Position numbers and translations under genes: made by a program. Source: Streptococcus oriscaviae (GTDB taxonomy: Bacteria > Bacillota > Bacilli > Lactobacillales > Streptococcaceae). Taken from it: DNA of 64,000 bases. Positions 55,111 to 64,000 of this stretch are shown here, piece after piece (position 1 is the first letter of the stretch; each line of letters starts with the position of its first letter). The DNA lies in contig NZ_CP073084.1 of NCBI RefSeq assembly GCF_018137985.1, positions 806,001 to 870,000 of the forward strand, read 5' to 3'. Below the pieces are notes generated by a model that had not been told where the DNA came from, did no database searches, and saw nothing but the letters and a program-made list of their open reading frames with translations.

Positions 55111-55162
55111 TTGAAGCTTTGTGAAAAATATAGTATGATATAAACAAAAGTAAGCGCTTTCT
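55111..55162 (+). promoter_or_regulatory. Promoter of the ABC-PASTA operon with cre-like site
   Basis: TTGAAG (55111-55116), 17-bp spacer, TATGAT (55134-55139). AGTAAGCGCTTTCT (55149-55162) matches the cre consensus at 12 of 14 positions by my count with an intact AAGCGCTT core and covers the first transcribed bases, a repressing position for CcpA. Confidence 0.65.
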
Positions 55163-55188: not shown

Positions 55189-56670
55189 ATGAACTATCTA
55201 AACCGAGCTTGGCTCAGCGTGACCCGACGCAAGGGAAAATCCCTCTTGCTCTTCACCATTCTCTTTATTTTGGGCAACGTTATTGCTGGCGCAGTCTCGA
55301 TTCAGCAGGCCACCCAAAGTGTTGAACGCAAGATTAAACACCAGATGGGAGCCACGGCTACCCTCCAACTAGATTATGAGCGTTTAAGCAAAGAAGAGCC
55401 CCAAGAAGCCCTTCCGAATCTGAGCAAGGAATTGATTGAAGAAATTGGAAAACTTCCTTATGTGAAGTACTATGACTACGTACTCAACAATACCATCGGC
55501 TCCGAAAGTTTCCAAGCCTACATTCCACCTTTCCTTGAAGAAAACGGAGGAGTTCCGGCAGTAGAGAATAATCAGTTCGCATTCAACCTCCGCGGTGTTC
55601 AATCCAGCGTCGTACTCCCGATTGAAGAGGGGGAAATCAGCATCGTCCAAGGACGAAACTTTACCAATGAGGAAGTGACTGCCGGAAAAACTGTTGCCTT
55701 AATTTCCAAAGAACTAGCTGATAAAAACAATGCCACTGTCGGCGACACCATTACCCTGAACAACTATATCTACGGCGAAATAAACTCAGATGGTCAGGCT
55801 GAAATCGCGACCCAATTTGAACACCAAGTCGAAATCATCGGTATCTATCAGAGCAAAAAACAAACAACCAGCAGCACAGACAATCAAAAAGAAGGCGACC
55901 AGTGGAGCAAGGCCTTTCAAGAACAGATGCTGGCCAACCGCATCTTTGTCCCCAACAAATTTGTCGAAGCAACCCGACGTGAGTCAATAGAGGCAGCTGC
56001 TAGCCAAAACGAGAACGGCCTCACCGAAGAAGAAATGCAAGGGTACATTTCAGCAGGAGAACCTCTCTATGTATTAAAAAGCCCAGAAGATGTAGAAAAT
56101 TTTAGACAAGAAGCCCAACCTCTCTTGCCTGATTACTATATCGTCTACGCGGCTTCCGATGCCTATGATACTATTGCAGCGCCAGTACAATCCATGTCAC
56201 GGTTGGCAGGCTATGTCCTGATTGTTGCCGTTATCGCAACCATCACCATTATCACCCTAGTCGTCTTGCTCTTCTTGCGCGACCGCAAACATGAACTGGG
56301 TATCTATCTTGCACTCGGCGAAGCCAAATGGAAGGTTGTTGGACAAACCTTGATCGAGGTCTTCTTGATTGCCTTCCTCTCACTCAGCCTCTCTATTTTT
56401 ACCGGAAATGCAACGGCAGGAGCTGTTTCGGACTCCCTCATCCAGCACCAAATCGAGCAAAATGAGGACCCTAACGGAGGAATTAGCTATACCTCCTTTG
56501 AATTCCAACCAGATACTAGCACCGACGATGTCATCAATGAATATAAGGTTGAGTTGTCCCTAGGCTACATCGCTGCTATGTATGGTATTGGTCTAGGAAC
56601 CGTCCTTTTGGCAACACTCGTGCCAGTCGGCTACATTGTTCGCCTCAATCCGAAACGAATTATGATGTAA
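55189..56670 (+). CDS. MacB/FtsX-like ABC transporter permease
   Basis: 493 aa. One N-terminal helix (about residues 18-40), a large extracellular domain (about 41-335) and three C-terminal helices (about 338-362, 388-412, 452-478), the plan of MacB-type permeases. The MacB signature RKGKSLLLFTILFILGN and the C-terminal RKHELGIYLALGEAKWKVVGQ are clear. Such transporters use mechanotransmission rather than classical transport. The only permease in the operon, so it would work as a homodimer. Substrate unknown. RBS AAAGGAGG. Confidence 0.88.
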   Translation: MNYLNRAWLSVTRRKGKSLLLFTILFILGNVIAGAVSIQQATQSVERKIKHQMGATATLQLDYERLSKEEPQEALPNLSKELIEEIGKLPYVKYYDYVLNNTIGSESFQAYIPPFLEENGGVPAVENNQFAFNLRGVQSSVVLPIEEGEISIVQGRNFTNEEVTAGKTVALISKELADKNNATVGDTITLNNYIYGEINSDGQAEIATQFEHQVEIIGIYQSKKQTTSSTDNQKEGDQWSKAFQEQMLANRIFVPNKFVEATRRESIEAAASQNENGLTEEEMQGYISAGEPLYVLKSPEDVENFRQEAQPLLPDYYIVYAASDAYDTIAAPVQSMSRLAGYVLIVAVIATITIITLVVLLFLRDRKHELGIYLALGEAKWKVVGQTLIEVFLIAFLSLSLSIFTGNATAGAVSDSLIQHQIEQNEDPNGGISYTSFEFQPDTSTDDVINEYKVELSLGYIAAMYGIGLGTVLLATLVPVGYIVRLNPKRIMM

Positions 56671-56681
56671 GGGGGAGTATC

Positions 56682-57356
56682 ATGCCTATTTTAGAAGCAA
56701 AAAATGTGTCCTACTACTATCAGGACGGAGAGAACCGACGCCACATCCTAAAGGGTGCTACCGTTCAGTTTGAAAAAGGGAAATTCTATACCATCCTTGG
56801 ACAGTCTGGTTCGGGGAAAACTACCCTTCTATCTCTCCTCAGCGCCCTTGAAGCCCCTAAAGACGGTCAGATTCTCTACAAAGGAAAAGATATAAAAGAG
56901 ATTGGCTACGAAGCCTTTCGGCGCAACCATATCGGCATTGTCTTTCAGTACTACAACCTCATTCCTTACATGACAGCTGTTGAGAATGTTCTGGTTCCCA
57001 TGGCCATAACAGAAAACCAACTGCCGAGCGATTCTAAGGAAGTTGCTTACAATCTCTTGGATTATATCGGCATTGTCCAATCCAAAGCGGACCGCCTAGT
57101 AACCCAATTATCTGGCGGTGAACAGCAACGGGTAGCCATTGCGCGCTCCTTAGCCACCAATGTCGAAGTCATTCTAGCTGACGAACCAACGGGCAATCTT
57201 GATGAAGAAATGGAAAATGAAATAGTGGATATTTTTATGAAGCTAGCCCACGATCATGACAAATGCGTCATTGTGGTCACCCATTCTCAGGAAATTGCCC
57301 AGAAGTCAGACCAGACCTTCTACCTGAGAAAGGGAGTACTAAAAGCCTATGAATGA
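56682..57356 (+). CDS. MacB-type ABC transporter ATP-binding protein
   Basis: 224 aa. Walker [10 protein letters not shown], signature [14 protein letters not shown], Walker [14 protein letters not shown]-loop VVTHSQE. Lies 11 bp after the permease gene (GGGGGAG RBS) and overlaps the PASTA gene by 8 bp. LolD/MacB class, so it belongs with the upstream permease. Confidence 0.93.
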
Positions 57357-58767
57357 TTTTCTATCAAAATTTTCTGGAAAAAACTACGATAAAATCCTTG
57401 ATGACCAGCCCCTAGCTGAAAGCCAGCCTGCACCGACTGAAGAAGAGGAAGCCCCAAGAAAAGAACCGAGCCAACCAACAGCCCGCAGACGCCGAAGTGA
57501 GTCCTCTGCCAGTCGGTCTGTCAGACGGGAAGAATTGGCCGAGGAAATGGAGATTGACCCTCATTACAAGAAAAATCAGCGGAAAAAATGGGCGATGATT
57601 GCCGGTAGCGCTCTCTTGACACTTGTGCTTGCTGTATGGCTCATCTATCAATTCACCCATGTCAGCCTACCCAATTTCGTTGGTCAACCGCTGACCGACG
57701 CACGAAAATGGGCGACTGAAAATCAGGTCACCATTGATCTCAAACAAGAATATAGCGATACAGTTGAGGTGAATACCGTCATTTCTCAAGATAAAAAGGC
57801 AGGCAGCAAGCTGGCCAAGGGCGGAACCTTAACCGTGACCAGTTCCCTTGGGGCTGACCCTGAGGAAATCATCAGCCTGCCTGATTTTTCCAGCATGACC
57901 TTCTCACAAGCCAAAAAATGGATTGAGGAATATAAGGCTGAAAACCTCAAGCTGGTTCAAGAATATAGTGACACCATTGAAAAAGGGCAGTTTATCAAAC
58001 TGGATATTGCCAATAATATCCCTGCGGAAGAATACAAGCGCTCCAACAAAGCCAGCCTATACTACTCTCGAGGAAAGGAAATCCTTGAGGCCAACATCGA
58101 AGTTCCCAACTTCAAAGACAAGCCAAAAGCTGACGTTGAAAGCTGGGCTAGAACCAATTCCATCGCTGTTACTTATCAGGATAAGGCTAGCTCCACCGTT
58201 GCAACAGGGCTCGTATTGGACCAATCGATAGAGGCAGGTCAAAAAATTGCGAAAAAATCTACCATGACCGTCGCCATTTCTGCTGGCAAAGGAGTAACTG
58301 TTCCGAATTTCAATCATATCAACGCCAGCCAAGCTGGATCCGTATCTGGGCTAACCGTCATTGTCCGCTTTGTTTATAGCGAACTTCCCTACGGTCACCT
58401 GATTAGCCAGTCTCAAGAAGCTGGTACAGAACTGACAGAAAAAGATGATCGGAATGTCGAAGTCGTCTACTCGGCCGGCATCCCTTACCTTCGTGACTTA
58501 CGCGGAAAAAATGAGGGCGACCTCCAACAATATTTCTACGACCAGTTCCGCTCTAAGGGCGCCGACATCTACTATACCACCTATTATGTCAACTCTGATC
58601 AAGCCAAGGGGACTGTGGTGCAACAGAGCGTTTATGAAACAGAGTTGCCACTTTCTTACACTGTCGAGCTGGGTATTAGCAATGGCGCTTGGTACAGCGG
58701 CCAAACCCCACTAAGCTCTAGCGACGACAGCAGCAATTCTCAGACGGAAACCGGCAGCAATCCATAA
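57349..58767 (+). CDS. Membrane protein with five PASTA-like repeats, no kinase domain
   Basis: 472 aa. Residues 1-80 are a charged, probably disordered cytoplasmic tail (acidic at 31-36, then ARRRRSESSASRSVRRE, rich in Ser/Thr/Arg); one helix at about 81-101; then five PASTA-like repeats, starting near 107 (SLPNFVGQPL), 178 (SLPDFSSMTF), 248 (EVPNFKDKPK), 312 (TVPNFNHINA) and 372 (YLRDLRGKNE); and a Ser-rich C-tail. The EYSDT motif of repeats 1 and 2 also occurs in the StkP PASTA repeats. PASTA domains bind peptidoglycan or muropeptides. Coupled to an ABC transporter by overlapping genes. Confidence 0.88.
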   Translation: MNDFLSKFSGKNYDKILDDQPLAESQPAPTEEEEAPRKEPSQPTARRRRSESSASRSVRREELAEEMEIDPHYKKNQRKKWAMIAGSALLTLVLAVWLIYQFTHVSLPNFVGQPLTDARKWATENQVTIDLKQEYSDTVEVNTVISQDKKAGSKLAKGGTLTVTSSLGADPEEIISLPDFSSMTFSQAKKWIEEYKAENLKLVQEYSDTIEKGQFIKLDIANNIPAEEYKRSNKASLYYSRGKEILEANIEVPNFKDKPKADVESWARTNSIAVTYQDKASSTVATGLVLDQSIEAGQKIAKKSTMTVAISAGKGVTVPNFNHINASQAGSVSGLTVIVRFVYSELPYGHLISQSQEAGTELTEKDDRNVEVVYSAGIPYLRDLRGKNEGDLQQYFYDQFRSKGADIYYTTYYVNSDQAKGTVVQQSVYETELPLSYTVELGISNGAWYSGQTPLSSSDDSSNSQTETGSNP

Positions 58768-58806: not shown

Positions 58807-58841
58807 AAAAGGCTTAAAATCAACGTGATTTTAAGCCTTTT
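58807..58841. terminator. Bidirectional terminator
   Basis: Perfect 16-bp stem (58807-58822 with 58826-58841) with an ACG loop, between the convergent PASTA and cvfD genes. Confidence 0.88.
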
Positions 58842-59223: not shown

Positions 59224-60624
59224 TTAGTCCTCAATTGTAATACCAAGGATAACAACGTCCTCTACTGGCTTATCCATCGCCCCAGTTTCAACAGCAGCAA
59301 TAGCATCCAAAACGGCATAGGAAGCTTCATCTGCCAAATGCCCAAAAACAGTGTGGCGTTGATCCAAGTGTGGAGTTCCACCTTTTTCCGCATACAATTC
59401 AGCAATGGGTGCTGGCCAGCCACCGCGTTCCAGTTCTTTCTTTGCATACGGAAGCTTGGTGTTCTGAACGATAAAGAACTGACTGCCATTGGTGTTTGGC
59501 CCAGCATTGGCCATAGATAGAGCACCACGGAGGTTAAACACTTCCATTGAAAACTCATCTTCAAAAGCTGCACCGTAGATGGACTCGCCACCCATACCTG
59601 TACCTGTCGGATCGCCACCTTGAATCATGAAATCCTTGATAATTCGATGAAAAATAACGCCGTCATAGTAGCCGTCTTTGGCTAAAGCAATAAAGTTTGC
59701 GACCGTCTTGGGAGCAATTTCAGGGAAGAGTTTCAGCTTCAAATCTCCATGGTTGGTTTGAATGGTTGCAAGAGGACCAACATAGTCCGCTAAGGCAACT
59801 TGTGGATAGTGTTTTTCTTTTTCTACCATTCCTAATTTCTCCAAGGCATCAAAAATGCCATCTTCTTCTACTTTTTTTGTAATATAGTCGGCCCGTTTTT
59901 GCAAGTCGGGATGAGAATGCCCCATCGCAATACTAATGCCTGCATAGTCAAAAACCTCTAAATCATTCAGTCCATCACCAAAGACCAGAACATTTTCTGA
60001 CTTAAGTCCCAGATATTCCACAACCTTGGCAACACCTGCCGCCTTAGAAGCGTTTTTGAGAACAATGTCTGAAGAAATCGGATCCCAGCGAACACTGCGC
60101 AAGCTCTTGCCCAAATCTTCAGTGAGCTCAACTTCCTTACCTTCCTGCTCAAAGGTCCACATCTGGTAAACCGGATGGTTTTGATAGAAAGTTGGGTCTG
60201 TCGGAAGATTTTCATAAACCACATCAATGGTCTGACTGATGCGCGGCGTACGGGCAGACAAGGCCGCTGTTTCACTGCCGACCAATCCATACTCAATACC
60301 AATTTCCTTGGTGAACTGGATGTAGTCTTCAATCAGTTCCACAGGAAGGGGCTGGTGGTGGATAATTTGGCCCTTGGCATCTTCTACATAGGAACCATTG
60401 ATGAGGGCAAAATAATCAGGCTGAAGGGCCCTGATTTCTGGTACGACACCGTATTTGGCCCTACCCGAGGCAATTCCCGTCAAAATCCCCTTCTCCTTCA
60501 GCGAGCGAAAAACCTGCTTGATCGAGTCAGGAATATAGCCTGTATCCTTGATACGCAAGGTATCGTCAATATCAAAGAAGACAATTTTAATCTTCTTGGC
60601 TTTGTATTTTAATTTTGCGTCCAT
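59224..60624 (-). CDS. Fusion of Cof-type HAD phosphatase and cyclophilin prolyl isomerase
   Basis: 466 aa from ATG 60624 (AAAAGGAG ahead; the earlier ATG at 60648 overlaps a TATAAT). N-terminal HAD-IIB phosphatase: nucleophile in [10 protein letters not shown], motif [14 protein letters not shown]. From about residue 275 a cyclophilin domain ([51 protein letters not shown] regions). Streptococci commonly have this fusion; no signal peptide, so cytoplasmic. Why a sugar-phosphate phosphatase is joined to a prolyl isomerase is not known. Confidence 0.92.
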
Positions 60625-60655
60625 AAGTCTCCTTTTACTGCTGTCCATTATACCA

Positions 60656-61297
60656 TTATTCTTCGTCTTGTGCTACCAGGCCATGTTGGAAAGCATAGAC
60701 AACCGCCTGTGTCCGATCGCTGACAGCCAGTTTGGATAAAATATTGGAAACATGGGTCTTAACCGTCTTCAGAGAAATAAAGGACTCATCTGCAATCCGT
60801 TGATTATCGTAGCCCTTAGCCAGCAAAGCTAAAATGTCGCGTTCACGCGCGGTCAAATCTTCATGCAAATCCGGATAGCGCTTGTGATGTTCCACCTTCT
60901 TCTCTACTTCTGTTTCAATGGCCAACTCTCCCCGCGCTACCTTACGAATCGCTCGTAGAATTTCTTCTGCGCTGGAAGTTTTAAGCATGTAGCCCCTTGC
61001 TCCAGCCTCAAGAACAGGATAGATTTTTTCGTTGTCCAGATAAGAGGTCAAAATGACAATCTTGGCGTCCTCCCACTCCTTCAACAGGGCCAAAGTGGCC
61101 TCTACTCCGGTCATTTTAGGCATGACCAAATCCATGACCACCACATCTGGTTTGAGTTGGAGAGCCCGTTCAAGACCCTCTTCACCGTCGCTTGCTTCTG
61201 CAACGACCTCTACATCTTCTTGCAAATTCAAAAAACTTTTCAAGCCCAGTCGAACCATCTCGTGGTCATCAACTAGCATCACTCGTATCTTGGTCAT
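60656..61297 (-). CDS. liaR: NarL-family response regulator LiaR
   Basis: 213 aa: receiver (phospho-Asp in [13 protein letters not shown], about residue 55) and LuxR-type HTH ([39 protein letters not shown] region). VraR/LiaR of the cell-wall stress system that answers lipid II cycle damage. Overlaps liaS by 29 bp. Confidence 0.93.
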
Positions 61298-62288
61298 CTT
61301 CTTTTCCTTTCAATAATGGGATGCGAATATCAATAGCTACTCCCTTGTTAGGGGCTGTGCGAATCTTAATCGTCCCCGCCATATCCTCTACTCGCTCTTG
61401 CATGTTCTGCAAACCGTAACTCAATTCTTGCTCATCTGATTGTACAAATCCAACACCATCATCCGTCATCTTGAGTTGAAGCTCAGACTCTGACTGAACT
61501 AGGTAGACATCCAGGTGCTTGGCTTTGGCATGCCGCAGGGTATTGCTGATGATTTCCTGAGCAATCCGAAAGAGATGCTCCTCGATATGCTTAGGCAAGT
61601 CCTCCACCTGATGATGGAAGTGAACCTGAATGGCACTCTTGTCACTGACTTCTCTGAGAATCACTTCAAAGCCCTCCACCAAGGTCTTCCCATCTAGCTC
61701 GCTCGGTCTGAGGTGAAGCAAGAGGATACGGAGATCTCTCTGCGCTGTTTCAATCATGTCCTTAACCGCTAATAACTGCTGGGCCAAGGTATCTTGCGAA
61801 ATGGTGTTCAAATTACTGGATAAACCAGATAAAATCATACTGGTCGCAAAAAGTTCCTGACTGACCGTATCGTGCAAATCACGGGCAATCCGACGGCGTT
61901 CCCCTTCCACAATTTCTTCTTGTTTAACCAAATCCTGATTATCTATCATCTGAACCTGTCTGGTCAAACTGCGCACCTTATCAGACAGTTGTAAGAGAAG
62001 CTGATCTTCTTCTGCTGAGGAACGAATGCTCTTGTTTTGAAGAATGGCCCGGATTTTCTGCCTAGTTCCTTGAGTAGCAACCAAAGAAACTGTTTGAACC
62101 AGAACCGACAAAAAGAAGGTCAATACGATAATCAAGAGTAAGAGGGTAAACACCAACTGCTCTGTCGAAGTCCAAAGAGATAGGTCAAAGACAGAGTAGT
62201 TCAACAAAGGAAAGACAGAGGCCAGAACAACCAAGACAATGAGGGTTGCGTACCAGATTAAGAGTAACAGGGTTCCTTTTTTCATCAT
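61269..62288 (-). CDS. liaS: Cell-wall stress histidine kinase LiaS
   Basis: 339 aa from ATG 62288 (GGAGGTGG ahead, ATGATGA overlap with liaF stop). Two helices (about residues 5-27 and 46-68) with a short loop, a coiled-coil linker, then HisKA_3 with the phospho-His in RRRIARDLHDTVSQELFA and an HATPase domain (DDGVGF). NarL-class kinase; held inactive by LiaF. Confidence 0.93.
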   Translation of the reverse strand: MMKKGTLLLLIWYATLIVLVVLASVFPLLNYSVFDLSLWTSTEQLVFTLLLLIIVLTFFLSVLVQTVSLVATQGTRQKIRAILQNKSIRSSAEEDQLLLQLSDKVRSLTRQVQMIDNQDLVKQEEIVEGERRRIARDLHDTVSQELFATSMILSGLSSNLNTISQDTLAQQLLAVKDMIETAQRDLRILLLHLRPSELDGKTLVEGFEVILREVSDKSAIQVHFHHQVEDLPKHIEEHLFRIAQEIISNTLRHAKAKHLDVYLVQSESELQLKMTDDGVGFVQSDEQELSYGLQNMQERVEDMAGTIKIRTAPNKGVAIDIRIPLLKGKEDDQDTSDAS

Positions 62289-62980
62289 ACTCGAACCACC
62301 TCCACATCTCCAAAGAGGCAATTCACCACCAATTTCACCCGTTTGTGGGAGTCTTTATAGTGTGGGCTGGAAATGGAAAAACTCTCGTTGCGCAAATCCC
62401 AGTAGGACAGGCCCATAAACTGGACGCGACCATATAGGCTGGAAGCCACCAAGGATACCTCTACATCAATGGGAACGATAATCTTCGTTTTCCCGAAGGT
62501 CTTTCGAATAACAACGATATTATCTCGTCCAACCAAGACAGCCTCATCCAAGTCAACGACATCATTTCCAAAAAGACGGATAATATTGATGTCCTCAAAA
62601 CCATACTTGTCCTGAGAGTGATCCTGATTACCAAACCACTTGGTTTTTTCTTTTTTAGCTTCTAGGGGCTCATCCTCCAGCAAAATATGGGTGTACTGAT
62701 TTCTTTTTTCGTATCTTGAAAAGAAATTGATAAAAATATAGATGATAAACAGCATCACCCCAACGATGAAATAAGGATTCAGTACAAATACAAGAAAAAT
62801 GAGCGATACCGCACTGGCTAAGAGTACCTGACTATTCTTCCTACCTGTCACATACCAAATCACCAGCATAAAGACCGCTACCAGTAAAATTGCACGCGCT
62901 GCTTCACTGGCCAAGACGTCAAAGAAAGCTAGTGTAAAAATTATACTTTCTAATAATAAGAAAAACTGCACTTTCCGCAT
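62285..62980 (-). CDS. liaF: LiaF, inhibitor of the LiaRS system
   Basis: 231 aa: about four N-terminal helices in residues 1-95 and a soluble C-terminal DUF2154-type domain (LFGNDVVDLDEAVLVGRDNIVVIRKTFGKTKI region to GDVEVVRV end). In Bacillus and streptococci LiaF binds and silences LiaS. First of liaF-liaS-liaR, directly after stkP. Minus-10 TACAAT at 63002-63007 on the minus strand. Confidence 0.92.
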   Translation of the reverse strand: MRKVQFFLLLESIIFTLAFFDVLASEAARAILLVAVFMLVIWYVTGRKNSQVLLASAVSLIFLVFVLNPYFIVGVMLFIIYIFINFFSRYEKRNQYTHILLEDEPLEAKKEKTKWFGNQDHSQDKYGFEDINIIRLFGNDVVDLDEAVLVGRDNIVVIRKTFGKTKIIVPIDVEVSLVASSLYGRVQFMGLSYWDLRNESFSISSPHYKDSHKRVKLVVNCLFGDVEVVRV

Positions 62981-63106: not shown

Positions 63107-64000
63107 TTATTGACCGTTGCTGGAAGAGGTACCAGTGGAAGAAGAACTAGAGCTTCCTCCTTGCTGTGAATTGGAGGCAACGGAAACATAGAGAGTCACC
63201 GTTCCATCAATCGTGCTGCCAGCTGCTGGGTACTGTCCTACAACCAGGTCACTGGTTGTAGCCGCGTAACTGCTATCTTCTTGTTTCTCAATAGTAGAAA
63301 CTGACACTCCCAAGTTTTGAAGCTGACGTCTTGCTTCTGCATAACTATACTTCATCACACCAAAATCTGGCATGGTAATAGCCGGTCCTTTTGACACGAT
63401 TAGGTTGACAGTGGAGCCCTTAGTCAAGCTACTTCCTACCGTAGGATTGGTACTGATTACCACTCCCTCTGCAAGGGTATCGCTGTACTCTTGTGTGATA
63501 TCACCTACTAGGAAACCGGCAGTTTTCAACTCCTGACTAGCTACTTCCTGACTCTTACCGACCACATCTGGAACTGTCGTTGGTTGTGGGCCTTTGGAAA
63601 CAACAATCGTAACCGAACTGCCTTTGGCCTTGGAGCTTTCAGCTATTGGATCGGTCTTAATAACCGTTCCGCTCTCTACGCTGTCACTGTATTCTTCCTT
63701 GCGCTTGACGGTAAAACCAGCATTTTCTAATTCCTGTTGTGCCACGGAAGCATCTTGGCCAACCACATCTGGAACTGTGACTGCTTCTGCAGAGGCTAGA
63801 ACAATATCTACTGTACTGCCTTCACGCTTGGAGCTGTTGGCTGCTGGATTGGTCCGAAGAACAGTTCCTTCTTCCACATCGGAGGACTCCTCCTCTGTTA
63901 CCGTTCCCACTTTCAAACCTGATGTTTCTATTTTTTCCTTAGCAACTTCCAAGGTTTGCCCTCTGACATCTGGAACCGTAACCGTTGCTGGAGTGTTATA
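63107..64000 (-). CDS. stkP: Serine/threonine kinase StkP, PASTA ectodomain (cut by window edge)
   Basis: The last 297 residues are in the window. Four PASTA repeats are visible, starting at VTVPDVRGQT, VTVPDVVGQD, TTVPDVVGKS and ITMPDFGVMK, with the typical EEYSDSVESGTVIKTDP second half, then a Ser/Gly-rich tail. The kinase domain and membrane helix lie beyond 64000. It is identified by synteny with liaFSR, as in other streptococci where StkP-PhpP lies just upstream. It senses peptidoglycan at the septum. Confidence 0.93.
   Translation of the reverse strand, partial: YNTPATVTVPDVRGQTLEVAKEKIETSGLKVGTVTEEESSDVEEGTVLRTNPAANSSKREGSTVDIVLASAEAVTVPDVVGQDASVAQQELENAGFTVKRKEEYSDSVESGTVIKTDPIAESSKAKGSSVTIVVSKGPQPTTVPDVVGKSQEVASQELKTAGFLVGDITQEYSDTLAEGVVISTNPTVGSSLTKGSTVNLIVSKGPAITMPDFGVMKYSYAEARRQLQNLGVSVSTIEKQEDSSYAATTSDLVVGQYPAAGSTIDGTVTLYVSVASNSQQGGSSSSSSTGTSSSNGQ

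Follow-up and report, generated by a model that had tools for sequence, protein, structure and literature searches.

A kinase-less PASTA membrane protein encoded and co-inherited with a MacB/FtsX-type ABC transporter in Streptococcus oriscaviae and its relatives

The DNA considered here is a window of 64,000 nucleotides from Streptococcus oriscaviae (contig NZ_CP073084.1, positions 806,001-870,000, in a genome of 2.197 Mb), and positions below are numbered within this window. On its plus strand, at 55189-58767, three genes follow one another in the order permease, ATPase and PASTA protein; the first two encode an ATP-binding cassette (ABC) transporter, which is inherited in a nearly obligate manner with the third, a membrane protein without a kinase domain (Table 1). 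The permease and ATPase genes are separated by 11 bp (56671-56681), and the ATPase and PASTA genes overlap by 8 bp (57349-57356); these values and the coordinates are exactly those of a preliminary description made from the sequence alone. The same description regarded the three genes as a single unit, which is borne out by the conservation of their order in related genomes. Its phrase "fused in operon" is apt for the overlapping genes, but not for the products, which are no fusion protein. Because the trio is conserved among relatives, in Streptococcus and in genomes of the order, a chance adjacency of the three genes is ruled out.

The permease matches the Pfam families MacB_PCD (46.6 bits, cut-off 27) and FtsX (37.2 bits, cut-off 25.5). 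In its structural model, long helices lie at residues 15-53, 331-375, 380-425 and 458-485, and a predicted ectodomain occupies about residues 55-330, between the first helix and the last three. A structure search with this model returned MacB, Spr0695 and LolCDE-like folds, plus FtsX folds, with VIA-align structure rows counted as tied when their Z differed by less than 1; the YtrF structure aligns with the model over 391 residues (root-mean-square deviation 5.3). At E≤0.01, the only NCBIfam matches of the permease are ADOP and lolCE, both far below cut-off, and the 15.1 bits against lolCE (cut-off 362.45) fall short of the LolC/E equivalog level. The ATPase matches ABC_tran in Pfam (117.6 bits), and its translation shows Walker A, the signature LSGGEQQR and Walker B. 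Its best NCBIfam model is LolD (195.4 bits, under the cut-off of 307.75); L_ocin_972_ABC scores 187.6 bits (cut-off 254.85), and FtsE 178.2 bits (cut-off 264.85), which is below the FtsE equivalog level. By their domains, the intact ATPase motifs and the layout of one transmembrane (TM) helix, an ectodomain and three TM helices, the two proteins belong to the type VII (MacB/FtsX) ABC superfamily. The ATPase is the best-conserved subunit, with 67-83% identity to that of the window in 80 relatives.

The third protein is a member of the PASTA-domain family, as seen from its score against PF03793 (123.9 bits, cut-off 23.2) and its PASTA fold. Pfam shows four PASTA stretches in it at a loose E≤1, and two of its repeats appear as separate above-cut-off matches in a PASTA search of the genome. 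Since these are fewer than five, the five repeats of the preliminary description are upheld by the AlphaFold2 model, with five consecutive helix-plus-strands domains at residues 105-444 (pLDDT 84-95 in blocks of ten), together with the remote relative L159, in which Pfam detects five PASTA stretches (E≤0.1). The protein is indeed kinase-less: it scores 130.9 against the NCBIfam model PknB_PASTA_kin (cut-off 450; best stretch residues 15-244), and its Pfam matches include no kinase domain. The closest solved fold is the ectodomain of Staphylococcus aureus PrkC (3py9, E 1.2e-15). The basic residues before the TM helix place the N-terminus inside the cell. The first 8 bases of the N-terminal motif coincide with the end of the ATPase gene, and we propose that this motif may serve as a transporter-docking peptide. 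In an alignment of 80 + 12 trio proteins, PASTA5 has the highest median identity to the window protein of all ectodomain parts (0.52), and conservation is lowest in the Ser/Arg-rich stretch at residues 15-62 (0.16). That PASTA domains are rare outside kinases and penicillin-binding proteins (PBPs), as had been stated, is only partly true: the same genome encodes another kinase-less PASTA protein, of 238 amino acids (aa).

Table 1. Features of the trio and its surroundings in the window
Feature	Position	Strand	Basis
Permease, 493 aa, MacB_PCD + FtsX	55189..56670	+	reading frame, Pfam, structural model
ATPase, 224 aa, LolD-like	56682..57356	+	reading frame, Pfam, NCBIfam
Single-pass PASTA protein, 472 aa, without kinase domain	57349..58767	+	reading frame, Pfam, NCBIfam, AlphaFold2 model
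N-terminal cytoplasmic motif M(S/N)DFLSxFxxxxY, residues 1-14	57349..57390	+	sequence alignment
Juxtamembrane motif E-(I/V)-D-P-x-Y, within residues 63-73	57535..57567	+	sequence alignment
Single TM helix, residues ~79-103	57583..57657	+	model helix 71-103, sequence
PASTA domain 1, residues 105-168	57661..57852	+	Pfam, model
PASTA domain 2, residues 176-243	57874..58077	+	model, alignment
PASTA domain 3, residues 250-313	58096..58287	+	PASTA search, model, alignment
PASTA domain 4, residues 316-377	58294..58479	+	model, alignment
PASTA domain 5, residues 378-446	58480..58686	+	model, alignment
Sigma-70-like promoter TTGAAG-17-TATGAT, 5' of permease	55111..55139	+	consensus match only
cre-like palindrome AGTAAGCGCTTTCT, just 3' of -10	55149..55162	+	sequence pattern
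16-bp perfect stem, loop ACG, 3' of operon	58807..58841	.	read directly from sequence
HAD-family hydrolase fused to cyclophilin-type peptidyl-prolyl isomerase	59224-60648	-	Pfam
LiaFSR genes	60656-62980	-	Pfam, NCBIfam
PASTA kinase StkP at window end, phosphatase-like gene beyond	63107-64000	-	Pfam, NCBIfam

Searching one genome per species for the PASTA protein turned up 119 relatives, the best 80 of which were kept. The order permease-ATPase-PASTA is present in 80/80 of them, and the 8-bp overlap of the ATPase and PASTA genes in 78/80, with starts placed by the motif. The genome searches scored few candidates per genome, and their order, class and phylum sets are samples. The full-length PASTA protein is found in 11 of 284 Streptococcus genomes (at least 691 bits), and the next match, in a reading frame that at 670 aa has the size of a PASTA kinase, falls to 72 bits; the permease is found in the identical 11 genomes (at least 643 bits; next match 116 bits). 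In the order sample (n=345), 56 genomes carry a match to the PASTA model (E≤1e-40) and 58 to the permease model (E≤1e-60): 53 have both, three have PASTA only (G365, G385, G443) and five have only a relative of the permease. A PASTA gene not conserved beside the transporter, which the preliminary description had named as evidence against its idea, is not what was found: the gene lies beside the transporter in 80/80 loci, 11/11 Streptococcus genomes and 53/56 PASTA-positive genomes of the order. Two complete PASTA matches occur in 16 genomes, all 16 of which have two trio-type permeases; the paired PASTA matches of G345 and G487 are fragments of a single gene.

The PASTA model also matches 8/348 genomes of the class sample (E≤1e-40) and 7/388 of the phylum sample (E≤1e-30), five of the latter being outside the class. 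In these five genomes the ATPase adjoins the PASTA gene in 5/5, and the permease is seen in 4/5; the stretch retrieved for the fifth locus is short, and its PASTA gene is apparently broken. One out-of-class locus (L161) has the order ATPase-PASTA-permease. Out-of-class trios retain an MSxFL N-terminus at a protein identity of only 29-35% (42% for the L162 fragment), and it is present although four of the five hidden Markov model (HMM) matches did not reach the N-terminus. It is important to note that one of the two scan patterns selecting the 80 relatives was the N-terminal motif, so that its conservation there is partly by construction. In a check free of this filter, MSxFL was found in 17/17 HMM-found loci, ten of which (L148-L157) were hand-picked from 74 order matches, seven of them for a late-starting alignment. 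L151, L153 and L161 have variants in the third or later residues, and in L162 the motif lies in a different frame piece from the short PASTA open reading frame (ORF) of an apparently broken gene. The trio system is widely spread and patchily distributed. One further trio copy (L145:3604-7279) has an intact ATPase and broken permease and PASTA frames, or else a poor assembly.

In the three PASTA-only genomes, the permease is absent genome-wide (E≤1e-60) and the trio ATPase is absent from the retrieved stretch, while a PASTA protein of 385-393 aa persists. Compared with 92 trio proteins, these three have neither the N-terminal motif nor the EIDPxY segment, and their PASTA2 is missing (coverage 0-0.18, versus at least 0.99 in 92/92 trio proteins); PASTA3-5 are retained at 31-46% identity, with PASTA1 more strongly eroded (17-28%). 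Because the N-terminal peptide, the juxtamembrane segment and PASTA2 are absent together with the transporter, the simplest reading of these sequences is that the three parts face the transporter, and that PASTA3-5 may be useful alone. The three genomes belong to one genus, probably Vagococcus: what we read as a glyQS-like neighbourhood occurs both in two of them and in named Vagococcus loci, and the third carries an apparent dnaG-like gene close by. The persistence of the PASTA protein would also fit a protein that serves the resident kinase (StkP, IreK or PrkC) as a kinase-less decoy or partner and merely shares the operon of the transporter, as would the alignment of residues 15-244 with the PASTA-kinase model and the PrkC-like ectodomain fold. 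Such a decoy is extremely unlikely in view of the near-obligate co-inheritance with the transporter, and because the N-terminal motif and PASTA2 are missing in precisely those genomes that have no transporter.

We lean, with some reserve, towards the view that the trio forms an ABC complex of type VII (mechanotransmission), with the PASTA protein as its dedicated third subunit and no bystander. By analogy with the family, the usual dimer would be built from two copies each of permease and ATPase, and ATP cycles would move the permease ectodomains. The N-terminal peptide MSDFLSxFxxxxY, the EIDPxY segment and PASTA2 would engage the transporter, while the remaining PASTA domains may form a rod into the wall zone, contacting peptidoglycan or lipid II. 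In this way the PASTA subunit might couple the ATPase cycle to a wall event, in the manner of MacA-MacB and SweDC-FtsEX, and this event would most likely fall within envelope maintenance or defence against cell-wall-active compounds. The genes, their co-inheritance, the motif and its loss with the transporter are observed, and the folds are predictions; direct contact, stoichiometry, the wall ligand, the direction of any signal and any transport are what we infer. A more specific version, which we put forward only tentatively, is a wall-tethered ATP machine: the PASTA domains would grip or sense peptidoglycan, the TM helix would relay this to the MSDFLSxF peptide gating the ATPase, and the motor would pull the rod. 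If this were true, there would be a second, kinase-independent PASTA output in Streptococcus, Enterococcus, Bacillaceae and some non-Bacilli lineages.

Several points weigh against a dedicated PASTA subunit. Permease relatives without PASTA occur in five order genomes (G361, G412, G430 and G563, 207-211 bits; G549, 459 bits); the permease family is able to do without PASTA, and the G549 permease is rather close. G285, G455 and G466 have an extra divergent permease lacking a matching PASTA gene (in G466 a third one, beyond two trio-type; G285 and G455 have one PASTA match each). The motif pattern M-x(1,2)-(D/E/S)-F-(L/F/M) fits 92/120 homologs listed (of 155) and is missed by 28, some being truncated, some having a looser FLxx(F/Y) and a few distant ones having none. 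The transporter-less cases may be a single event, because they involve one genus and a common PASTA2 deletion, and the PASTA protein can also be useful alone, as it survives without the transporter. The contact between the PASTA protein and the transporter is itself a deduction, and some PASTA domains bind no muropeptide. Finally, the 22/80 loci with a response regulator, which point only weakly to antimicrobial defence, amount, on our reading, to only three or four independent contexts.

Among the loci without a PASTA gene, L138:4867-9359, L146:3341-7736 and L147:4143-8647 hold paralogous permease-ATPase pairs (~207 bits) that adjoin apparent divergent two-component systems, and L137 holds a low-scoring pair without such a system. 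In G549 (L136:2089-6802), an ATPase, a 114-aa protein without a Pfam match and a permease are followed by an apparent response regulator and kinase; here the third subunit can be one other than PASTA.

The preliminary description also suggested that the PASTA protein might play the part of a MacA-type adaptor. Its architecture makes this plausible, being single-pass with the N-terminus inside, but its fold is PASTA and not MacA/HlyD. Pfam finds no HlyD/MacA-type adaptor in the window operon, a result that covers the window and not the 80 related loci. In pneumococcal MacAB-like Spr0694-0695 with MacA, and in Bacillus YknXYZ, the adaptor is of the HlyD/MacA kind, whereas the trio has a five-PASTA chain; its permease has 493 aa versus 378-390 residues in the 5xu1 chains, and its order is permease-ATPase-PASTA. 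In an export machine of this type, an efflux pump would lift a hydrophobic peptide, an antibiotic or a lipid out of the outer leaflet, and the PASTA rod would guide it past the wall on the extracytoplasmic side. In favour of this are the MacB/Spr0695/LolCDE-like fold of the permease, the comparability of the trio to the YknXYZ genes, and the ABC/two-component modules that adjoin trios in some Enterococcus, Oceanobacillus and Streptococcus loci. Related permeases also occur at L139:4621-9396 and L141:3-4580, with a 126-135-aa protein and an ATPase beside a large ORF, in clusters whose gene layout may be read as resembling lactococcin-972 transport, for which the trio ATPase has its sub-cut-off match. 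However, MacA and YknX are hexameric, and the PASTA model predicts a string of small domains without a channel-forming part. We regard an export role as unlikely.

FtsEX with SweD/SweC in Bacillus subtilis, or with EnvC, is likewise a type VII pair with dedicated membrane- or wall-side cofactors, and the cytoplasmic domains of SweC and SweD are important (PMC6705773). The trio differs from FtsEX in its MacB_PCD-type permease, its cofactor with PASTA domains and the lack of a constant hydrolase neighbour. It could nevertheless be an FtsEX-like regulator that uses its PASTA ectodomain to localise or activate a peptidoglycan hydrolase or synthase. The permease does match FtsX folds, SweDC offers a precedent, and PASTA proteins act in septal wall synthesis, as PMC8707513 states for StkP. 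This role is decidedly unlikely, as the top non-trio neighbour family is a response regulator (22/80) and not a hydrolase, and the patchy occurrence in Streptococcus (11/284) is unlike that of a core division factor.

Like StkP, PrkC and IreK, the trio protein has a single pass and a PASTA ectodomain; unlike them, it is without a kinase domain, has its own conserved N-terminal peptide and has nearly obligate ABC neighbours. BceAB-RS and YtrEF share the FtsX-superfamily permease with the trio, and such modules adjoin some trios. BceB is a 10-TM permease, and we know of no PASTA subunit in systems of the BceAB-RS or YtrEF type. The window operon differs from BceAB-RS in having no two-component gene; LiaR lies ~1.9 kb off on the other strand, and this neighbourhood is not conserved.

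The components of the trio are of known kinds, but their combination with a near-obligate PASTA subunit was not found described in searches of open-access PMC literature, in which no paper listed has a title or abstract start that describes the trio. Because an ABC machine is nearly always inherited with a wall-facing kinase-less PASTA protein, the trio suggests a previously undescribed route coupling the cell wall to an ATP-powered motor. In the usual view, PASTA domains form the wall-facing portion of kinases and PBPs; a widely conserved ABC machine having a PASTA subunit of its own would add a third output. The trio is thus a testable system for the coupling of a type VII transporter to the Gram-positive wall, and the joint absence of the transporter, the N-terminal motif and PASTA2 points to small experimental targets.

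The Ser/Arg-rich tail had been suggested as a kinase substrate. In a study of Streptococcus suis, a "PASTA domain-containing protein" has phosphosites T25/S30 that are lower in an stk mutant (PMC8707513). By comparison with sequences named S. suis, not those of the study strain, these sites fit a 403-405-aa membrane protein with one PASTA domain (P0212, P0226) and not the trio protein, which in the window has the reverse, Ser25 and Thr30; as the sites fit a different PASTA protein, they were discarded as support for the trio protein. They were also rejected as sites of the soluble PASTA protein, in which three S. suis-named sequences have I25 and Q30. No S. suis-named trio protein is present among the 120 homologs listed of 155, and the PASTA search of the window genome (E≤0.001) gave no match in a frame of ~403-aa size. 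The 403-405-aa protein sets a precedent, and nothing beyond that, for kinase targeting of a PASTA membrane protein that is itself kinase-less. A phospho-switch, by which StkP would phosphorylate the cytoplasmic tail and turn the transporter on or off, could draw on this precedent of stk-dependent sites in the N-terminal tail of a different protein, on the start of the StkP gene ~4.3 kb from the trio in this genome, and on Ser6 of the N-terminal motif as a candidate site (Ser/Thr in 88/93 aligned trio proteins). The tail at residues 15-62 is, on the other side, the least conserved part, its best Ser/Thr column reaching only 36/93, and the LiaFSR neighbourhood is not retained in the 80 relatives; such a switch is very unlikely. 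A membrane protein of the S. suis type, 403 aa long and with a single PASTA domain and an apparent SH3-like segment, is encoded at L127:5665-6885 (minus strand); its T25 and S30 agree with the published stk-dependent sites.

Apart from the trio, clustering of ORFs of at least 80 aa found no gene family in more than 22/80 neighbourhoods, and therefore the trio itself is the conserved unit. The commonest neighbour family is the response regulator (22/80 trios, flanks up to 8 kb); two of these neighbours were checked with Pfam and have FtsX-type ABC genes and kinases alongside. In the window, LiaS exceeds the streptococcal NCBIfam cut-off (462.3 vs 450), and the closest relatives that bear a name are Streptococcus, both in keeping with the genus of this DNA. 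The neighbours LiaF, LiaS, LiaR, CysK-like, YigZ-like, S1 protein and HAD-cyclophilin were searched in the 80 loci (E≤1e-20). A link to LiaFSR was rejected, as LiaS/LiaR-like matches occur in 1/80 loci only (L011, 30-37% identity); a CysK-like match occurs in 1/80 (L077), and the remaining neighbours in 0/80 at this threshold. The LiaFSR neighbourhood of the trio looks incidental. Seven Enterococcus trios (L076, L078, L080, L082, L084, L086, L088) lie between frr-like and uppS-like genes, and in six of the seven the genome has another trio among the 80. These flanks may be a hint of undecaprenyl metabolism or a mere insertion site.

The promoter in Table 1 is one of five promoter-type sites in the region, where chance alone would give 5.0. 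The pattern AANCGNTT occurs within 200 bp upstream in 10/11 Streptococcus/Granulicatella trios (the window and L009-L018) versus 6/42 control upstreams, having been picked post hoc from the sequences in which it was counted. With a fixed cre consensus, 8/79 trio upstreams versus 6/420 controls match at up to one mismatch, and 18/79 versus 46/420 at up to two, in related and hence non-independent species (one of the 80 loci is without upstream sequence). Catabolite control of the trio may be taken as an exploratory lead. The stem downstream of the operon is likely a bidirectional terminator between the trio and the convergent S1-domain gene; it was missed by a terminator scan, whose T-tail rule it does not satisfy.

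An anti-phage role was set aside, the PADLOC matches to mad3 (ATPase, 108.5 bits) and PD-T4-6 (PASTA part, 92.4 bits) being read as shared ABC/PASTA domains; the remaining components of these two systems were not looked for. A mobile element was rejected as well: the five matching plasmid records are without exception replicons of Enterococcus raffinosus, 0.98-1.19 Mb in size and predicted to be non-mobilizable, and only one of them covers at least 80% of the query. The second kinase-less PASTA protein of the genome (238 aa) lies at L089:3318-4034 (C1 ~1539317-1540033) and shows no membrane helix that would be obvious; its identity to proteins named S. suis is ~61-64%.

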